From a virus: a stretch of 57,398 nucleotides of DNA. How positions within the stretch are numbered: position 1 is the first letter of the stretch; the number at the start of each line of letters is the position of its first letter. The stretch covers positions 1-57,398 of IMG/VR virus record IMGVR_UViG_3300010371_000008. One strand, given 5' to 3'. A program made the translations under genes and the position numbers. Positions 10,722 to 37,100 of the stretch are shown piece by piece. The notes under the pieces were generated by a model that saw nothing but the letters and a program-made list of their open reading frames with translations, had not been told where the DNA came from and did no database searches.

Positions 10722-13619
10722 TTGTCGCTGCTGCCGCCGCTGCTTATGGAAATCAAGGCCAAGAATTCCGAGGCCATCGCGGCGTTCAAGGAGACTGCCG
10801 CCGAGGCCAACAAGATGGCTGCCGAGGCGACCGCTGCCGGTGAAAAGTCGAACGCGTCATTCCAGAAAATGCAGGGCATTTCCAAGGCCGCATTCTTGGC
10901 GACTGCCGGTGTTATGGCTGTGGTGGGTGTTGAGTCCATCAAAATGGCGGCAGAGTTTCAGGAGTCCACCAGCAAGCTTGCCGGTAACGCCCAGATCAGC
11001 ACGGACGCCGCAAACAACATTGGTAAGGCGTTCCTGTCCACGGCGGGCAAGTCCACGTTCAGCGGCCAAACCATGGTCAACGCCTACGGACCGGTTGCCC
11101 GGCAGCTCGCCTCCGTTGAAGGCCACGCCCTCTCGTCGTCCGACGCGCTGAAAGTCATGACGGCGGCCTCCGACCTGGCCGAGGCGTCCGGCGGCGATCT
11201 CGCCTCCACCACGTCCACCCTGGCCGTGGTCATGCAGTCCTACCATTTGGGCGCCACCGACGCCGCCGAGGCGTCCAACACCTTATTCAACGCCTCAACC
11301 ATCCTGAACACGCCGCTAGCCGACGTGGCTAACGCTGTGGACAAGCTCCACGGGCGTCTCGGTGTGGCCGCCCCATCCTTGGCGGACACGTCCGCGCTCA
11401 TGGTCGATCTTGGCCAGCACGGCGTGACCGGTTCGCGCGGGCTCATGGTGGTGCAAACGGCCATGTCTACCCTGCTCGGTGGTGCCAAGCCCGTCAACGA
11501 TGAGCTGAAATCGTTGGGCGTCTCAATTTTTGATTCCAACGGCAAATTTATTGGCATGAAAGAGGCCATGGCCAAGCTGTCCCCAGCCCTTGCCGGGCTG
11601 ACGGATGAGCAAAAAGCCTTGGCTGAAAAGAACCTTTTCGGTGCCGGTGCTGCCGGTGTCATGAACGGGGTCATGTCTGGCGGTGTCAAGTCGTTTGAAG
11701 CCGCATCTGCTGCGGTGGAGAAGCACGGCGCCGTGGAATCCGCGGCTGAACGGAACGCGCACACGTTCGGCGGCCAGCTCAAGACTCTGTGGGCTACGTG
11801 CCAGGATTTGGGTGTCACGATTGGCGCCGTCCTCCTGCCGCCCGTGCAAGGCGCACTAGCCGGCTTCCTGGGGCTGTTCAATTTCCTCAAGGCCAACACG
11901 CCCATCGCGATTACCTTGGGTGTCGTGGTGGGCGGCCTCGCCGTCGGCCTGTCCAGCCTGTACGTCATCACCAAGACGGTCACGCTTGTGCAGTCCGCAT
12001 GGGCCATGGGCACCAAGGCCGCAGCTGGCGCCCAATGGCTGCTGAACGCGGCCATGGACGCAAACCCCATCGGCATTGTGATTGTCATTCTCGGTGCTCT
12101 CGTGGCCGGTGTGGTCATCGCCTACAACAAGCTCGGGTGGTTCAAGGACGGCGTGAATGCCGTTTGGACCGGGATCAAAAACGTGACCGGTTCCGTCTGG
12201 GATTTCATCAAAACATACGTCATTGGCGGGTGGATTCTTGAATTCCAGATCCTGGGCAATGCAGGCATTTTCTTGTGGAAAAATGTTTTCATTCCGGTCT
12301 GGGATGGGATCAAATACGCGTCAAATACGACGTGGCAGTGGATCAACAACAACGTTTTCTCCCCGTTCAAACTCGGTATCACCGCTATCGGTATCGCGTT
12401 CGACCAGACACAAAAATTCATTGGCACCGCATGGGGCAAGGTGAAGGACGCCGCCGCGGCACCAGTCCGCTGGATTGTGGACACCGTTTACACCAACGGG
12501 ATTGAAAAAGTCTGGAACGGTATTGCTGGCGCTGTCGGCCTGAACCTGAAACTGCCCAACGTGTCCGCAGGTTTCGCGGACGGCGGCATCTACGGGACAC
12601 GCCCAGGCTACACGCCCGGACGCGACACCCACCTCATCGCCGTCTCCGGCGGTGAAGCGATCATGCGGCCCGAATGGGCGCGCGCCATCGGTACTGACGG
12701 GGTAAACCAGATGAACCGGATGGCGAAATCCGGCGGCGTTTCCGCGATCCGTAAAGCCATGGGCTATGCGGACGGCGGCATTGCCGGATACGCCGACGGC
12801 GGGGTACTCAACGGTATTGGCTCATTCCTTGGCGGGATCGGCCACGCCATCGGCACCGCCGTCTCCGACGTAGCCCATTTCGTGTCCGACCCGATAGGCA
12901 CCATTACCAGCCTCATCGTCGCACCCATCAAGGCCATGCAGTCCATGGCCCCGGGTGGACGGTTCGGGCAACTCGCGTTCCAGCTCCCCATCAACGTGGT
13001 GGACGGGCTCGGGGACGAGGCAAAGAAACTACTCGGCGCGATCACTGGCGGCGGCGGTTCCCCGGGCGGTGGTGGTGGGAACGCGGCGGCTGGCGTCCAG
13101 CAATGGGCGCCGGACGTGCTGCGCGCCCTCGCCATGGTGGGGCAACCCGCCAGTCTGCTACAAACCACGCTGCGCCGCATGAACCAAGAATCTGGTGGCA
13201 ACCCCAACGCAATCAACAATTGGGATTCCAACGCCGTAGCGGGCGACCCGTCGCGCGGGCTCATGCAAACCATCGGTTCCACGTTCGCCGCGTACGCCAT
13301 GCCCGGGTACAACACGAACATTTACGATCCGATGTCGAACATCCTCGCGTCTATGCGGTACGCCATCAGCCGGTACGGCTCGTTGGCAGCCGCCTACAAC
13401 CAGGCGGGCGGCTACTCACTGGGCGGAACCGTGCCTGTGTTCGATCAGGGCGGCTGGGTTCCTCCGGGACGGTCCATGATCGACAACCGCACTGGCGGCT
13501 ATGAGCGGCTTTCCAACACCACGCATGGCGGCGGAAACATCACCGTCTACGCCACCACCAACGCCTCACCCGACCAGATTGCAAACTCTATCGGTTGGGC
13601 GCTGAAAACCCAGTACTAA
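10722..13619 (+). CDS. Tape measure protein with a C-terminal lytic transglycosylase domain
   Basis: A 965-aa protein and the largest tail gene, starting at TTG 10722 behind AGGGGG. It begins with Ala/Lys-rich helices (AIAAFKETAAEANKMAAEA). It carries two strongly hydrophobic segments, around residues 390-410 and 445-465, and ends in a goose-lysozyme/SLT-like domain around residues 800-900. There the probable catalytic Glu lies in NQESGGNPNA (about residue 823), followed by GLMQTI and SRYGSLAAAYN. It sets tail length (about 0.15 nm per residue suggests roughly 145 nm) and probably digests peptidoglycan locally during DNA entry. Confidence 0.9.
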   Translation: MSLLPPLLMEIKAKNSEAIAAFKETAAEANKMAAEATAAGEKSNASFQKMQGISKAAFLATAGVMAVVGVESIKMAAEFQESTSKLAGNAQISTDAANNIGKAFLSTAGKSTFSGQTMVNAYGPVARQLASVEGHALSSSDALKVMTAASDLAEASGGDLASTTSTLAVVMQSYHLGATDAAEASNTLFNASTILNTPLADVANAVDKLHGRLGVAAPSLADTSALMVDLGQHGVTGSRGLMVVQTAMSTLLGGAKPVNDELKSLGVSIFDSNGKFIGMKEAMAKLSPALAGLTDEQKALAEKNLFGAGAAGVMNGVMSGGVKSFEAASAAVEKHGAVESAAERNAHTFGGQLKTLWATCQDLGVTIGAVLLPPVQGALAGFLGLFNFLKANTPIAITLGVVVGGLAVGLSSLYVITKTVTLVQSAWAMGTKAAAGAQWLLNAAMDANPIGIVIVILGALVAGVVIAYNKLGWFKDGVNAVWTGIKNVTGSVWDFIKTYVIGGWILEFQILGNAGIFLWKNVFIPVWDGIKYASNTTWQWINNNVFSPFKLGITAIGIAFDQTQKFIGTAWGKVKDAAAAPVRWIVDTVYTNGIEKVWNGIAGAVGLNLKLPNVSAGFADGGIYGTRPGYTPGRDTHLIAVSGGEAIMRPEWARAIGTDGVNQMNRMAKSGGVSAIRKAMGYADGGIAGYADGGVLNGIGSFLGGIGHAIGTAVSDVAHFVSDPIGTITSLIVAPIKAMQSMAPGGRFGQLAFQLPINVVDGLGDEAKKLLGAITGGGGSPGGGGGNAAAGVQQWAPDVLRALAMVGQPASLLQTTLRRMNQESGGNPNAINNWDSNAVAGDPSRGLMQTIGSTFAAYAMPGYNTNIYDPMSNILASMRYAISRYGSLAAAYNQAGGYSLGGTVPVFDQGGWVPPGRSMIDNRTGGYERLSNTTHGGGNITVYATTNASPDQIANSIGWALKTQY

Positions 13620-23896: not shown

Positions 23897-25093
23897 CTAG
23901 TCTTTTGGGGGATCAATTTCTTTGAGCTGGGCGGCGGCGACCTCCGACAGTTCGCCCATCATGGCCTTGCCAATGGCGGTTGCGGATTCAATCTGCGCGT
24001 CCGGCATCAGGTGCCCGTAAATCTTGTCGATCATGGACGTGTTGGCATGGCCGAGGCGGCGCGCGATCTTGAACAGATCCACGCCTTCCTGGATCAGCCA
24101 GGACGCGTGAGTGTGCCGCAGCCCGTGTGGTTTGATCGGCTTCACGAATGTTTCATCCATTTCGTGCGCCTTGTCGCGGGCCGGCACCCAGTAATTCCGG
24201 TAAAAGTCCTCGTTTTTGATCCTGCCGCCGCGCTTGTCCACGAAAAGGAGAGCATCTGTGGGTCGTCCCTCGATCAGCGGTTTCAGCATTTCGGCGAGAA
24301 TGGCGGGGATGGCGATGGTGCGGCGGGAGGATGGGTTTTTTGGTGGGCCGACGAAGCTGCGTTTGCCGCCGTCGGTCTTCCACGCTTTGTTGATCCTGAC
24401 GGTGGCAAGGGGACCGGACAGATTTACGTCCCCGACGGTGACGGCGGTGGCTTCCCCGAACCGGACCCCGGTCATGACAAGGAAGGAGATGAAAACCCGG
24501 TAGAACGCGTCCATGGCGGCGCGTAGGATGTTGAATTCTTTCACTGTCAGGAATAGCATGTCTTCCCCGGCGCGTTCGACGCTTGGCAGGTCCACGCGGG
24601 TGCATGGGTTGTTGGGACGGTATCCGCGCGTGACGGCGGTTTCCATGGCCGAGGACAGGAACGTGACGATCTTGGCTATGGTGACGGGGCTCATGGTGCG
24701 GTTTTTCCCGGTCTTCTTGTTCATGAGGCCGCGCACCCATGCCGTGATCTGGGTGTCCTTGAGCTGGTCCACAGGGACACCACCAATGTGCGGGCGGATG
24801 TGGTTGTTCAGGTAGCCCCTGTAATTGTTGATTGTGTGCTCGATGGGCTTGATGAGCGTATCTATGTGTTCTTGGCATACTTCGGCTACCGTGTGGGGCC
24901 GGGTCTTGACGGGAAGGATGACCTCTTGCGCTTTGGCGAAGTCGCCGCCGTTGGCGTCTAGTGCTTTGCGTAGGGTGATGGCTTCGGGTTCGGTGAGAAA
25001 TGTCACGGATGCTTGGGTGCCGTCTGTTTCTCTCCACATGACCTGGAATGAGGGTGTGCCGTCTTTGCGTACTCTTTTGCGAATGGATGCCAT
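23897..25093 (-). CDS. int: Tyrosine integrase
   Basis: A 398-aa site-specific recombinase from ATG 25093, which has GGTGAAACC just upstream; an in-frame TTG at 25180 would add 29 residues. It has an N-terminal arm-binding domain (SIRKRVRKDGTPSFQVMWRE), a SAM-like core-binding domain, and a catalytic domain. Visible catalytic elements are Arg in TGVRFGEA (about residue 210), HGLRHTHAS with the His-x-x-Arg box (about 321), GHANTSMIDKIYGH with the second His and the nucleophilic Tyr (about 358). It integrates and excises the phage; no separate excisionase is certain, but 28102-28335 is a candidate. Confidence 0.93.
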   Translation of the reverse strand: MASIRKRVRKDGTPSFQVMWRETDGTQASVTFLTEPEAITLRKALDANGGDFAKAQEVILPVKTRPHTVAEVCQEHIDTLIKPIEHTINNYRGYLNNHIRPHIGGVPVDQLKDTQITAWVRGLMNKKTGKNRTMSPVTIAKIVTFLSSAMETAVTRGYRPNNPCTRVDLPSVERAGEDMLFLTVKEFNILRAAMDAFYRVFISFLVMTGVRFGEATAVTVGDVNLSGPLATVRINKAWKTDGGKRSFVGPPKNPSSRRTIAIPAILAEMLKPLIEGRPTDALLFVDKRGGRIKNEDFYRNYWVPARDKAHEMDETFVKPIKPHGLRHTHASWLIQEGVDLFKIARRLGHANTSMIDKIYGHLMPDAQIESATAIGKAMMGELSEVAAAQLKEIDPPKD

Positions 25094-25168
25094 GGTTTCA
25101 CCATCTGTAGATAGTTTTTTCGTGGCGTCGGTGGCCTGTATCGGCGCGGCGTCTACTCTAATTTTAGT

Positions 25169-25215
25169 GTTCGGCGTCAACGAAAACGCGGGGCATCGCG
25201 GCGTTCGGCGTCAAC
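25169..25215. repeat. Direct repeats upstream of int (possible arm-type sites)
   Basis: GTTCGGCGTCAAC occurs at 25169-25181 and again at 25203-25215, 34 bases apart, with a weaker GTCGTGTCAAC nearby at about 25226. Pairs of short direct repeats beside int are typical of integrase arm-binding sites in attP. The attP core itself could not be identified. Confidence 0.45.
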
Positions 25216-31974: not shown

Positions 31975-32310
31975 ATGGGGCAGCTCGTCCTTGGACGGTT
32001 CAGCGTCCGTTGCAGGTGCGGGAAAATCGTCGGCCTGTCGCTGGAAGACGCCCGGATGCAGTACCGCAAATTCTCCAAAAAACATGGCAGCACCAACCCG
32101 GTCAGGTATTACCGATGCCAGTACAACTCGTGGCATTGGACCAGAAAACTGGAATGGAAAGAATCCACCACCCCGCCCTGTCCCCGCTGCGGGAAAACCA
32201 TTTACGACGACACCCACGACCCGGAAGCAGGCAGTTATTGCACGCTCGCCTGTCACGACCTCGCCAAGCAATATCACAACCAGGCCAGACGGGCGGCGTC
32301 CAGATCATGA
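31975..32310 (+). CDS. Zinc-binding-type basic protein
   Basis: A 111-aa basic protein with CRCG near residue 13, a C in the YYRCQY segment, CPRCGK at about 71 and YCTLACHDLA near 90. The spacing suggests two zinc sites with nucleic-acid binding. The stop overlaps the next ATG. Confidence 0.6.
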   Translation: MGQLVLGRFSVRCRCGKIVGLSLEDARMQYRKFSKKHGSTNPVRYYRCQYNSWHWTRKLEWKESTTPPCPRCGKTIYDDTHDPEAGSYCTLACHDLAKQYHNQARRAASRS

Positions 32311-32513
32311 AAACTGCCCTAATCATCACAGCGGGCGTCCTCGCCGTTGTCGGGCTCCGGGCCGTCATCCTCGCCTACACGTCACGGTGCACGGTCACAC
32401 CGCCCACCATCGTTTTTTCATCAGAAGATTTTCCACTCACACCGGAAGAAATGGCCGCTGCAAATGCGGAAGACGACCTAATCCTGTGGGAAAGGCAGTT
32501 CAACACCCCATGA
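32307..32513 (+). CDS. Small membrane protein
   Basis: A 68-aa protein with one N-terminal transmembrane helix (TALIITAGVLAVVGLRAVIL) and an acidic tail (ANAEDDLILWERQ). Translationally coupled on both sides (ATGA). Unknown role; membrane anchoring is evident. Confidence 0.6.
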   Translation: MKTALIITAGVLAVVGLRAVILAYTSRCTVTPPTIVFSSEDFPLTPEEMAAANAEDDLILWERQFNTP

Positions 32514-33535
32514 CCATCTATTACCAGGACGACATGGTGACGCTCCACCACGGGGACAGCCTCGAAATCCTGCCAACCCTTGACATGGAGGCTGCGGCGC
32601 TACTCACAGACCCACCCTATTTCAAGGTCAAGGCCGACGAGTGGGACAACCAGTGGGACAAAGCCCACGAATTCCTGTCATGGATGGGCGTGTTCCTCGA
32701 CCACGCGAAACCGCTACTTGCACCCAACGCGTCCGTGTGGGTGTTCGCCTCCCCGGTTATGACCTCATCCGTTGAACGGATCATCGGTGACCGGTTCCGT
32801 GTCTTGAACTCGATTCGGTGGGTCAAGGAATCCGGTTGGCACCAGAAGGCCGAGCTTGCGGCCATGCGTTCCTACCTTTCCCCGTGGGAAGGCATCGTTT
32901 TTGCGGAGCAGTTCGATGACGTGTATGGGGACGCGGCCAAGGCGTTGCACCGTGAAGTGTTCGCACCTATCGGCCACTACATGCAGGCCGAATGGGAGCG
33001 TGCGGGCTGGAAGTCCGGGGCGTTGGGTGTGGCGTTGGGTTATGACTCGGCACTGCCCACACGCTGGGCCGAGGGCTCATCCCTGCCAACCCGTGACGCG
33101 TACGAACGCATGCGCGGAATCCTGAACAGCACCGGTTCCGACTACCTGGCGAAGGATCACGCGTACCTGCAAACCGAATACGACTACCTGCGTCGCGAGT
33201 ATGAAGAACTGCGCAACGAATTTGAGACGCTACGCCGCCCCTTCACCATCACCGACCGGGCACACTCCACCGACGTCTGGAACTTCCCACCCGTCACATG
33301 GCACCCCGGAAAACACCCATGCGAGAAACCCCAAACCATGCTGCGGCACATGATCCAAACCAGCACCCGCCCGGGCGACACGGTTCTAGACCCGTTCGCT
33401 GGATCTGGCGCCACCCTGGACGCGGCCAGACAGCTAGGACGCCGCGCCGTCGGCATCGAAAAAGACGAGCACTGGTGCGAGGAAATCGCGCGGCGCCTGT
33501 CACAGAACGTACTCAATTTTGGAGAAGTGGCATGA
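32510..33535 (+). CDS. DNA methyltransferase, beta class (N6-adenine or N4-cytosine)
   Basis: A 341-aa protein. The catalytic motif IV is DPPY at residues 34-37; the SAM-binding motif I is DPFAGSG near 295. This order (IV before I) defines the beta class. Between them lies a recognition region with a long coiled segment (YLQTEYDYLRREYEELRNEF). DPPY suits adenine-N6. With no partner nuclease visible it is probably an orphan that shields phage DNA from host restriction. Confidence 0.85.
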   Translation: MTIYYQDDMVTLHHGDSLEILPTLDMEAAALLTDPPYFKVKADEWDNQWDKAHEFLSWMGVFLDHAKPLLAPNASVWVFASPVMTSSVERIIGDRFRVLNSIRWVKESGWHQKAELAAMRSYLSPWEGIVFAEQFDDVYGDAAKALHREVFAPIGHYMQAEWERAGWKSGALGVALGYDSALPTRWAEGSSLPTRDAYERMRGILNSTGSDYLAKDHAYLQTEYDYLRREYEELRNEFETLRRPFTITDRAHSTDVWNFPPVTWHPGKHPCEKPQTMLRHMIQTSTRPGDTVLDPFAGSGATLDAARQLGRRAVGIEKDEHWCEEIARRLSQNVLNFGEVA

Positions 33536-33732
33536 CCAAAAAGACTGTCCAACGGTGCGGCACGCACCACGGATATTTCGACCACAAACGCAACGGGTCC
33601 CCCGCATGCACTGTCTGCCTCGCCGCCTATGCGAAGTGGATGCGGGAATACAGACACCGCACCGGGCGCAACACCCACACACTCACCCCAGACACCATCC
33701 TGCAACGCCACGGAATCAAGGTAGAACCATGA
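33532..33732 (+). CDS. Small basic protein between the methyltransferases
   Basis: A 66-aa protein with RCGTHHGYFDHKRNG and a CTVCLAAYAKWMREYR segment; it looks like a small zinc-associated basic domain. It overlaps both methyltransferase genes by 4 bases. Function unknown. Confidence 0.6.
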   Translation: MTKKTVQRCGTHHGYFDHKRNGSPACTVCLAAYAKWMREYRHRTGRNTHTLTPDTILQRHGIKVEP

Positions 33733-35222
33733 ATGCCACCAAAACAGATATCGACTGGACCGACCTGTTTTGTGGGCGCGGCGGATCTACAACCGGCATT
33801 AGCCAGGTTCCGGGAATGTCCGTGGCCGTAGCGGCAAACCATTGGCAACTCGCCGTTGACAACCACGCCGCAAACCACCAAGACACGGACCACATTTGCG
33901 CCGACATTTCCCAGCGAGACCCGAAGTATTTCCCGCACACCGTGGCAGCGTGGGGCAGTCCAGAATGCACAAATCACACCGTGGCCAAAGGCAAAAAGAG
34001 AGTCACGAACCAGCCGGACCTTTTCGGTGACACACTTCCCGACGAGGCTGCAGAACGGTCACGCGCCACCATGTGGGACGTTTGCCGGCTGTCCGAATTC
34101 CACAACTATCAGATATTCATCACCGAGAACGTGGTGGAGGCGGCCCGCTGGGTCATGTTCGATGCATGGCTTATGGCAATGACCGCACTGGGCTACAACC
34201 ACCACATCGTCTACATGAACGCGATGCACGCCCAACTCGGCGGGTTACCCGCACCACAATCCCGGGATCGCATGTACGTCGTTTTCTGGAAGAAGGGCAA
34301 CAGGGCCCCCGACTTTGACCGGCTGCGCCCCAATGCCTACTGCCCATCATGCGGGGAAGTTGTCCGCGCCATGCAGGTCTTCAAAAAGCCTGAACGGTGG
34401 GGCAAATACAAAGCACAATACAACTGGCGTTGCCCGAAACAGTCTTGCAAAAACCGGATCATCGAACCGGCATGGCTGCCCGCCTCAACCGCGATTGACT
34501 GGACCCTGCGCGGGCAGCGGATCGGAGACAGGCCACTACGCAAGTTCACGGACAAGAAGACGAACACCGAGACATGGGCGCCCCTCGCCCCCAAGACTCT
34601 CGCCCGCATCCACAACGGGCTGGAAATGTACGGGTCCACACCCATGAGCATTGATAGTGTCCGCGGGTCACAGATCATTAGCGCCGTGGACCGGGAACCG
34701 TTCGCCACCCAGACCACCGCATACACCCGTTCACTGCTGATCCCTGTAGAGGGACGCGACGGAAAGACGGCCCAGCCCGTCACGAACGCCATGCGCACCC
34801 AAACCACCCGCAACGAGACGGGGATACTCACGCCCGGGCATTCCATGCTCATGGAGTACTACGGCAACGGCACCATGCACGAACTGACCAAAGCCATCCC
34901 CACCATCACCACGCATGACCGGTTCGCCATGATTACGACCCTGCGCGGGCACAACACCCCGAAACTGGTTTCGGATGTTCTGGACACGTTCGCCGCCAAC
35001 GGACTGCATCACGGGCTCACCGAATGGGACGCCGCCGAACTCGACGATTGCGAATTCCGCATGTTGGAGCCGCACGAGATTAGCCGTGGCATGGCATTTC
35101 CCGAGAACGAAACGGAAATCGGCACCAAGCGCGAACGCGTGAAAATGTCCGGTAACGCTGTCTGCCCGCCGTGCGCCCGTGACCTGGCCATTATCACCGG
35201 GGAATCCTTGATGATGTCATGA
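33729..35222 (+). CDS. DNA cytosine-C5 methyltransferase
   Basis: A 497-aa protein. Motif I is DLFCGRGGST (residues 12-21). The catalytic motif IV is SPECTNHT, with Cys near 80 in place of the usual PCQ context. ENV (motif VI) lies near 132, PQSRDR (motif VIII) near 177, and GNAVCPP (motif X) near 475. A four-Cys zinc finger (CPSCG...CPKQSCK) is inserted around residues 203-240. The conserved Cys and other motifs suggest an active m5C enzyme, probably for anti-restriction. Confidence 0.85.
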   Translation: MNATKTDIDWTDLFCGRGGSTTGISQVPGMSVAVAANHWQLAVDNHAANHQDTDHICADISQRDPKYFPHTVAAWGSPECTNHTVAKGKKRVTNQPDLFGDTLPDEAAERSRATMWDVCRLSEFHNYQIFITENVVEAARWVMFDAWLMAMTALGYNHHIVYMNAMHAQLGGLPAPQSRDRMYVVFWKKGNRAPDFDRLRPNAYCPSCGEVVRAMQVFKKPERWGKYKAQYNWRCPKQSCKNRIIEPAWLPASTAIDWTLRGQRIGDRPLRKFTDKKTNTETWAPLAPKTLARIHNGLEMYGSTPMSIDSVRGSQIISAVDREPFATQTTAYTRSLLIPVEGRDGKTAQPVTNAMRTQTTRNETGILTPGHSMLMEYYGNGTMHELTKAIPTITTHDRFAMITTLRGHNTPKLVSDVLDTFAANGLHHGLTEWDAAELDDCEFRMLEPHEISRGMAFPENETEIGTKRERVKMSGNAVCPPCARDLAIITGESLMMS

Positions 35223-35802: not shown

Positions 35803-36666
35803 GTGGCACGTATCAGGTCTATCAAACCGGAAATCCGCACAAGCGAGAAAGTCAACGCGTGGCCGGTGGAGATCCGTTATTTCTGGATTATGCTCTGGGG
35901 ATACGTTGACGACTATGGCAAGGGACGCGATAACGCAAAACTAATTGTTGCGGACACGTACCCGCTGGACGATAACGTGACCCCGGCGATGGTGGAGGAA
36001 TGGTTATGTGTCCTGGCGCATGATGATGTAATCGCGCGGTATGTGGTGGACGGCAAACGGTATCTTGTGGTGCTGAACTGGGCGGAACATCAGCGCCCGT
36101 CACACCCGGCCAAGAGCGTTTTGCCAGACATGCCAGACGACTATAACGGTTCGGCAACAGAAAACTTGGTGCCTGCTCAAAAATCGAAACCAACCCCGCC
36201 GCATCCCAGTAATGGCGCGGATTACGGTAGTCCTCGCGAAGGTCTCCGGAGGATTACCGTAAATGATTCCCCTGAGCAGGGAGCAGTGAGCAGTGAGCAG
36301 GGAGCAGTGAGCGGGGGTAGCGCGGGCGCACCGCCGCGATCCAGCACCGCCGCGCGAAGCTCAACACGCATCCCGCGCGACTTCAAGGCAACGCCCCCAA
36401 TGATTGCGTGGGCGTTGGAAAACACCCCAAACGTCAACTGGCAGAACTCCACAAAAAGATTCAAATCCTACTACAACTCCGTCGCCGGTAATTCACAGCT
36501 CAAGACGGATTGGGTGGAGGCGTGGAAATCGTGGCTTTTGGGTGACCAAGAAAAAGCGGCGGCCAGACCGCAGCAGTTCAAGACGGCGGCGGAAAAGAAC
36601 TTAGAAGCCGGTGCGGCATTGCATGCGAAGTATTCGGCTCAATTGGAAATTGAAGGAACCCAGTAA
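35803..36666 (+). CDS. Replication initiator (phage replisome organiser/DnaD-like)
   Basis: A 287-aa protein starting at GTG 35803. The opening ARIRSIKPEIRTSEKVN followed by WPVEIRYFWIMLWGYVDDYG is the conserved N-terminus of phage replisome organisers, which bind the origin through a winged helix. A disordered middle encodes the iteron block 36274-36315. The C-terminal helical part (FKATPPMIAWALENTPNVNW) probably recruits the loader encoded next. This resembles lambda O, where the origin lies inside the gene. Confidence 0.75.
   Translation: MARIRSIKPEIRTSEKVNAWPVEIRYFWIMLWGYVDDYGKGRDNAKLIVADTYPLDDNVTPAMVEEWLCVLAHDDVIARYVVDGKRYLVVLNWAEHQRPSHPAKSVLPDMPDDYNGSATENLVPAQKSKPTPPHPSNGADYGSPREGLRRITVNDSPEQGAVSSEQGAVSGGSAGAPPRSSTAARSSTRIPRDFKATPPMIAWALENTPNVNWQNSTKRFKSYYNSVAGNSQLKTDWVEAWKSWLLGDQEKAAARPQQFKTAAEKNLEAGAALHAKYSAQLEIEGTQ
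36222..36315. repeat. Inverted repeat plus six 7-bp iterons: candidate replication origin
   Basis: TTACGGTAGTCCT (36222-36234) and AGGATTACCGTAA (36250-36262) form an inverted repeat with one mismatch. Twelve bases later, 36274-36315 holds six tandem heptamers of GAGCAGG/GAGCAGT type (the last is GAGCGGG), also readable as two 21-bp units. The block lies inside the initiator gene, at its disordered linker. Confidence 0.65.
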
Positions 36667-37100
36667 TGAACATTCTTGAAACAACGTCGTATCTGACTTG
36701 GCTTTCACAGTCGGATGGGCGGGTGAAGGTGACGGACCCGAATGTACAGATCTGGGCCGCCGCCCTGGCCGCCGCGACCAACGCCGAGGTGCGGGAAGCA
36801 ACGTTGGCACACTACCGGGGCAACGACACCTGCGTGACACCGCACATGATCCGCAAGGCGTGCGCGGAAATCCGGGAACGCACGACGGCGACACAATCAG
36901 CGTTGACCGCCGGCCCGGCGTTGACGGCGGAAGTCCCGTACGACGCGTACGTGAAGCACATCCACCGGCCCGAGTTTCAGGCCATGTTCGAGGCTGGCCG
37001 GCGCGAGGGAAACGCACACCGGGCGTACAAGCAGACGTTGCGGGAGACGGGCAGCCGTGAGCTGGCGAAGGCCGCCGGGGAACGGGCGCGGGCAGCGTGA
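36666..37100 (+). CDS. Putative helicase-loader-like replication protein
   Basis: A 144-aa helical protein coupled to the initiator by TAATG. The pattern W-x-x-AL, then EVREATLAHYRGNDTCVTPHMIRKAC, is common in small proteins that follow initiators in actinophages, thought to load the host helicase. No ATPase motif, so not DnaC-type. The family call is tentative. Confidence 0.5.
   Translation: MNILETTSYLTWLSQSDGRVKVTDPNVQIWAAALAAATNAEVREATLAHYRGNDTCVTPHMIRKACAEIRERTTATQSALTAGPALTAEVPYDAYVKHIHRPEFQAMFEAGRREGNAHRAYKQTLRETGSRELAKAAGERARAA

Follow-up and report, generated by a model that had tools for sequence, protein, structure and literature searches.

A probable replication origin of phased palindromes and tandem heptamers inside the initiator gene of a phage

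Where does a phage begin to replicate its DNA when the gene for its replication initiator itself contains arrays of short repeats? This question is raised by a 57,398-base virus record, the whole of which we analyzed and call the window. A first-pass annotation had pointed to an inverted repeat and a run of 7-bp repeats within one open reading frame as a candidate origin. Our analysis suggests that window positions 36222-36315 are very probably the phage replication origin, located where its own initiator gene encodes a linker. The features on which the argument draws are as follows.

35803-36666, + strand: initiator gene, 287 aa with a GTG start; PHROG 1408, "RepA-like replication initiator" of actinobacteriophages
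35803-36132, + strand: N-terminal winged-helix domain (residues 1-110), the proposed binder of the phased palindromes
36145-36372, + strand: disordered linker (residues about 115-190, AlphaFold2 pLDDT < 50), with the entire candidate origin inside
36222-36262, no strand assigned: 41-bp dyad, the proposed initiator-binding array, with four sites, TTACGGTA, CTCGCGAA, CTCCGGAG and TACCGTAA
36267-36273, + strand: TTCCCCT junction between palindromes and heptamers, with CCCCT kept in 6/6 closest relatives
36274-36315, + strand: tandem heptamer array of 42 nt, GAGCAGG GAGCAGT GAGCAGT GAGCAGG GAGCAGT GAGCGGG
36394-36660, + strand: C-terminal domain, helical (residues 198-286) and exchanged among relatives
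36666-37100, + strand: downstream gene, 37-43% identity to Arthrobacter phage proteins
37627-37998, + strand: replication-module gene for a RusA-like Holliday junction resolvase (PHROG 244, E 2.8e-27)
23897-25180: integrase gene (PHROG 1, E 1.1e-67)

In profile searches, the product of the 35803-36666 gene matched the PHROG 1408 "replication initiation protein" family over residues 1-269 (E 6.6e-37) as well as PHROG 2149 (E 4.5e-33). A tblastn search with the initiator matched at least 362 phage records, many of which carry a replication-initiator annotation and many of which come from phages of Mycobacterium and Gordonia. The Pfam-A search of the protein gave no family at E ≤ 0.1, lambda O N-terminal and replisome organiser families included, and the PDB sequence search with the initiator family profile gave no match. 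AlphaFold2 modeling from a 73-sequence alignment predicted the N-terminal domain with pLDDT mostly 90-98, comprising helices at residues 22-34, 45-52 and 61-73 and wing strands at residues 77-82 and 85-90. When this winged-helix model was compared to the PDB in a fold search, only generic winged-helix proteins were returned, all of them weakly (best E 0.037). The same modeling placed disorder at residues about 120-190, which, together with the PHROG 1408 assignment, bears out the original proposal that the repeats fall in the unstructured linker of an initiator.

The tandem 7-bp repeats themselves proved to be real. TRF identified a period-7 array of 6.1 copies at 36274-36316, and three consecutive GAGCAGK units were found in none of 100 dinucleotide shuffles. 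Scanning the window for the same pattern yielded three overlapping exact placements, all within 36274-36315, and none elsewhere even when two mismatches were allowed, leaving this the sole array of its kind in the window. The purine-rich strand of the array is the coding strand. Where six GAGCAGK units had been described, we found five exact units followed by a degenerate sixth, GAGCGGG; the length of exactly 42 bases, which keeps the frame, was correct. We also considered a G-quadruplex, which GGGAGCAGGGAGCAG resembles. Yet units ending in A (21) and in T (14) are common among 223, so a G-quadruplex is not a feature that the family shares.

Upstream of the heptamers, the arms TTACGGTA (36222-36229) and TACCGTAA (36255-36262) that had been reported as an inverted repeat are present, but their extent had been understated. 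The full arms are 14 nt long (TTACGGTAGTCCTC at 36222-36235 and GAGGATTACCGTAA at 36249-36262), with 13/14 positions paired (93%) around a gap of 13 nt. Arms of 8 bp are little informative on their own, with 106 such perfect pairs in the window. The 14-nt form was found 0 times in five Markov shuffles, though there are about eight such places in the window, and it is not a product of chance. The four sites of the dyad are centered at 36225.5, 36236.5, 36247.5 and 36258.5, exactly 11 bp apart, and the arms first reported are the outermost two of the phased sites. A separate outer hairpin was rejected, as the closest relatives do not preserve the TTACGGTA arms in inverted-repeat form; for this reason, and because the arms match the 11-bp phase, we counted them within the array.

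We found the same layout across relatives of the initiator. The six closest relatives all carry GAGCAG-type units at the same location (6/6), and when the viral collection was scanned for CCCCTGAGCAGNGAGCAGNGAGC, 19/19 stretches retrieved lay inside the linker of an initiator-family gene. An anchor-free scan for GAGCAGN x3 yielded at least 119 stretches. Pooling both scans gave at least 122 loci; among the matches listed, 49 belong to family genes and without exception read along the coding strand. Most other GAGCAGN x3 loci outside the family, among the matches listed, are apparently dispersed and mostly intergenic repeats on unrelated contigs, so the heptamer unit alone is not diagnostic. 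At L047, L068, L086 (contig IMGVR_UViG_3300039307_000285), L065, L041 and other loci, GAGCAGT or GAGCAGG arrays occur many times per contig; L033 and L085 have the heptamer mid-gene with a family assignment that is weak or absent. The reversed pattern, GACGAG x3, gave 46 loci, and it is not a pure negative control since three of these are family initiators that use GACGAGG as their heptamer. Among genome contigs, the pattern scan found seven, one of which (Micromonospora globbae, L181) has it in a family initiator. A BLASTN comparison of the 141-bp region to phages produced chance-level matches only.

Because these samples had been picked by the repeat, we sampled again by the N-terminal domain alone, which gave 148 nonredundant genes from query alignments that included known array carriers. 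Strict tandem arrays, defined as three copies of at least 93% with a period of 4-12, were found in 101/148 linkers versus 1/146 downstream, 2/142 upstream and 1/148 N-domain segments. With a relaxed score, the counts were 130/148 for linkers versus 3/146 downstream and 4/142 upstream, and about 12% of the sampled relatives are without a clear array at this threshold. Unit periods across the family are 5-8 bp, and the unit types include GGAACAGx (8 bp), GAGCAGG (7), GGATCAA/GGATCAG (7), GGAACAG (7), GGAAG/GGAAA (5) and a few others, with A[AGT]CAG present in 80/95 arrays. For instance, Fishburne, Brujita, Butters, Redi, Bipper, Denise, Ovechkin, PFR2 and Mycofy1 have 8-bp GGAACAGG-type units, PapayaSalad has 7-bp GGAACAG units and Gsput1 has 5-bp GGGAA units. 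In most of the linker arrays of Fishburne, Brujita, Butters, Redi, Bipper, Denise, Ovechkin, PFR2 and PapayaSalad, CTCGCGAG-type palindromes lie upstream. Some linkers hold other repeats: Shoya gp60 (L192 1012-1818), which joins another N-terminal domain to the C-terminal domain of the window, has a 5-bp GACCC array with a pyrimidine-rich coding strand, and LESphi2 (Pseudomonas phage, L191 1501-2379) and yong1 (Hafnia phage, L195 1501-2379) have TGATTC-type repeats. The complementary strand of these repeats reads AATCAG, and the two gammaproteobacterial relatives may thus have the array in inverted orientation.

The palindromes recur as well. Just upstream of the tandem arrays, autocorrelation in 70 nonredundant cases gave z = 18.1, 8.8 and 5.2 at lags of 11, 22 and 33 relative to a codon-shuffled baseline. 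The 11-bp-phased palindromes found there (CTCGCGAG, CTCCGGAG and CTCATGAG) have a core that varies by phage, with CGCG, CCGG, CATG and others represented, and perfect 8-bp palindromes in the linkers are mostly CTCGCGAG, CTCCGGAG and TTCGCGAA, positioned at most 60 bp upstream of the tandem array. Pairs of palindromes at spacings of 10-11 and 20-21 bp number 26 and 17 in linkers versus 3 and 2 downstream. Total palindrome density is not raised (5.7 per kb in linkers versus 5.1 and 6.8 in controls), and only spacing and identity are informative for the linker palindromes. Over 80 nonredundant arrays, the distance from palindrome center to first tandem unit clusters at 16-17, 26-28, 37-38, 48-50 and 58 bp. 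These steps of ∼10.5 bp amount to about 16 + 10.5n bp, with 88/102 distances within four of eleven phases, and the first heptamer of the window, at 36274, fits this spacing. At the level of sequence, these comparisons establish a two-part DNA element in which about four palindromes, 10.5-11 bp apart, are followed at a fixed helical phase by purine-rich units on the coding strand, the whole flanked by the winged-helix domain on one side and a C-terminal domain open to exchange on the other.

To which molecule does this conservation belong, the DNA or the peptide? Tandem units are found in all three reading frames across relatives, and therefore selection acts on the DNA and not on the peptide. 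Among the seven closest genes, invariant residues encoded by a single codon make up 7/7 in the region versus 9/62 in the N-terminal domain (Fisher p 1e-5). Together, the reading frames and the codon conservation rule out that the repeats merely encode a peptide linker. Relatives with a common N-terminal domain and array carry differing C-terminal domains. The C-terminal domain of the window initiator and that of gp60 from Arthrobacter phage Shoya share 56% identity, and the N-terminal parts of the two differ. The unit type is the same in 84% of pairs at 70-85% N-domain identity and in 11-20% of pairs below 40%, and it does not track the C-domain class. Since the N-terminal domain and the array are adjacent, linkage alone could cause the unit type to track this domain. 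One could propose that the repeats have no role in initiation and are a by-product of a flexible linker of low complexity, of a selfish 7-bp repeat that spreads, or of domain shuffling concentrated at this point. GAGCAGT arrays do occur as dispersed repeats on unrelated contigs, and the C-terminal domain is indeed swapped where the array lies. However, a by-product would have to keep the same location despite differing units and frames, a fixed strand and order, the helical phase-lock to the palindromes and the single-codon conservation, and we find this account scarcely credible.

The neighboring genes are informative about a second alternative, in which the locus is not an origin but a partition or other segregation (centromere-like) site, or else an operator for autoregulation. 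Repeat arrays of 7 bp or 10-11 bp also serve plasmid centromere-binding proteins, and TubR and AspA are among the many proteins to which the winged-helix model bears a weak resemblance (E about 0.2). The site nevertheless lies inside the initiator and is followed by a loader-like gene and RusA. Moreover, the integrase gene indicates that the phage is temperate and therefore has little need of partition, and an operator would be odd within a coding region, behind a DNA-binding domain, in most relatives. We thus regard a segregation site or operator as improbable. Matches to the 36666-37100 gene include BrayBeast gp61, annotated "helicase loader", and Shoya gp61, annotated "DNA helicase", and its function is taken from these annotations by others only. 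As both this gene and the C-terminal domain of the window initiator are Shoya-like, the domain and the loader seem to move together. The window proteins that were tested have their closest matches in Arthrobacter, Microbacterium and Streptomyces phages. Immediately ahead of the initiator, at positions 31991-35222 of the window, a DNA methyltransferase gene of the N6/N4 type adjoins one of the C5 type, and methylase genes likewise precede the initiator in PFR2, Shoya and Fishburne.

The proposal that an origin lies inside the initiator gene thus gains support from an array that recurs in most relatives with differing units and reading frames, on a fixed strand and phase-locked to palindromes. 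The likeness to the lambda O iterons needs to be divided. The origin-in-initiator layout appears to be shared, but what corresponds more closely to the iterons is probably the set of phased palindromes at 36222-36262 and not the heptamers, which in their strand asymmetry and non-helical period are a separate second element of the candidate origin. Alternatively, the heptamers could be the initiator iterons, bound as double-stranded sites by the winged helix, while the palindromes form a separate operator, for instance for autorepression. Direct repeats are classic initiator targets, as in SPP1 oriL within gene 38 (PMC6316719), and the agreement of unit type in 84% of pairs at 70-85% N-domain identity speaks for such binding. 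Against this, the period of the units (5-8 bp) is non-helical whereas the palindrome array is helically phased, the GAGCAG unit is paired with several cores (CCGG, CGCG and CATG), and it also appears in another initiator class, the O-like PHROG 345. We judge this assignment of the heptamers possible but unlikely; because it is compatible with origin function, its probability overlaps that of our main claim.

If the palindromes are the initiator-binding sites, the N-terminal winged-helix domains would bind them next to one another along a single face of the helix, forming a nucleoprotein complex. Strain or wrapping would then open the duplex at or beside the tandem array, and its one-strand, non-helical repeats might be held single-stranded by the initiator or by a conserved host replication factor. 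The strand so held would set the strand for helicase loading, and the C-terminal domain, with the downstream loader, would recruit the host helicase. The steps beyond palindrome binding are hypotheses. No AT-rich tract lies beside the window array at 36274-36315, nor is there an AT-rich element beside arrays in the family, where mean AT within 100 bp is 0.31-0.41 versus a background of 0.36. This missing tract is the main departure from textbook origins.

The second initiator class offers a view of the tandem array in another setting. In L100, the gene at 10968-12110 (- strand) matches PHROG 345, "replication initiation O-like" (E 6.1e-30), and has a mid-gene GAGCAGG array that follows a roughly 11-bp array of AAAGCCTT-type sites. 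In L360, grouped with L100, this roughly 11-bp array ahead of the tandem units reads AAGGCTT/AAAGCCTT. Three relatives of the L100 protein found by N-terminal domain (L361-L363) carry, at the corresponding location, 6-7 bp units of the GGAACAG or GGAGCAG type. The window protein and the L100 protein have no meaningful pairwise similarity outside the repeat-coded linker. The A[AG]CAG core accompanies differing palindromes in two initiator classes, PHROG 1408 and PHROG 345. A tentative extension, which we hold to be less probable than its negation, is that phage origins in general have the tandem GGANCAR(G) array as a second element, which replaces the AT-rich unwinding element and which, instead of being read by the initiator domain specific to each family, is read by a host replication factor or as single-stranded DNA. 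Its complement usually presents CTG every 6-8 nt, and an array of primase start sites or a helicase-loading array is one testable form of this idea.

A literature search found no paper placing the origin of phages with this initiator, and a text search did not find GAACAGGGGAACAG and found GAGCAGGGAGCAG in six human-disease papers only, subscription journals being mostly uncovered in both. Apparently, then, the two-part origin layout has not been described before, although it is present in most of a large phage family that includes well-studied mycobacteriophages. The finding supplies concrete candidate origin coordinates for phages that grow in, for example, M. smegmatis mc2 155, and would be of use in the construction of phage-derived vectors for actinobacteria. 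Mechanistically, it poses the questions of how an origin opens without an AT-rich tract and what reads a strand-specific array of 5-8 bp units.

Lastly, we compared the candidate origin to known systems. The extrachromosomal prophages Miko, Rachaly and Jeeves are of the RepA type, with RepA proteins of 320-350 aa (PMC7157519), and their initiators, like that of the window, are called RepA-like. The authors of that study suggested that, by analogy with lambda, repA itself or the sequence immediately before it may hold the origin, and repeated motifs were not found in the regions that they examined (PMC7157519). The O-like initiators of PHROG 345 resemble the window family in their GGARCAG-type, purine-rich mid-gene units and differ from it in N-terminal domain and palindrome core. 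In Bacillus phage SPP1, oriL consists of direct repeats within the initiator gene 38, and gene 39 is the helicase loader (PMC6316719). The candidate origin likewise has direct repeats inside the initiator gene, whereas the AT-rich unwinding element of SPP1 is missing from it. In lambdoid phages such as the Stx phages, the ori lies mid-gene in O and comprises four iterons and an AT-rich tract (PMC7466680). In place of the lambda arrangement, the window family has 8-bp palindromes every 10.5-11 bp and an array of 5-8 bp units without an AT-rich tract. In both, the origin or its candidate sits in the middle of the initiator gene and is built of repeated sites. A helicase-loader gene comes next in lambda, and in the window the next gene is a putative loader by the annotation of its matches.
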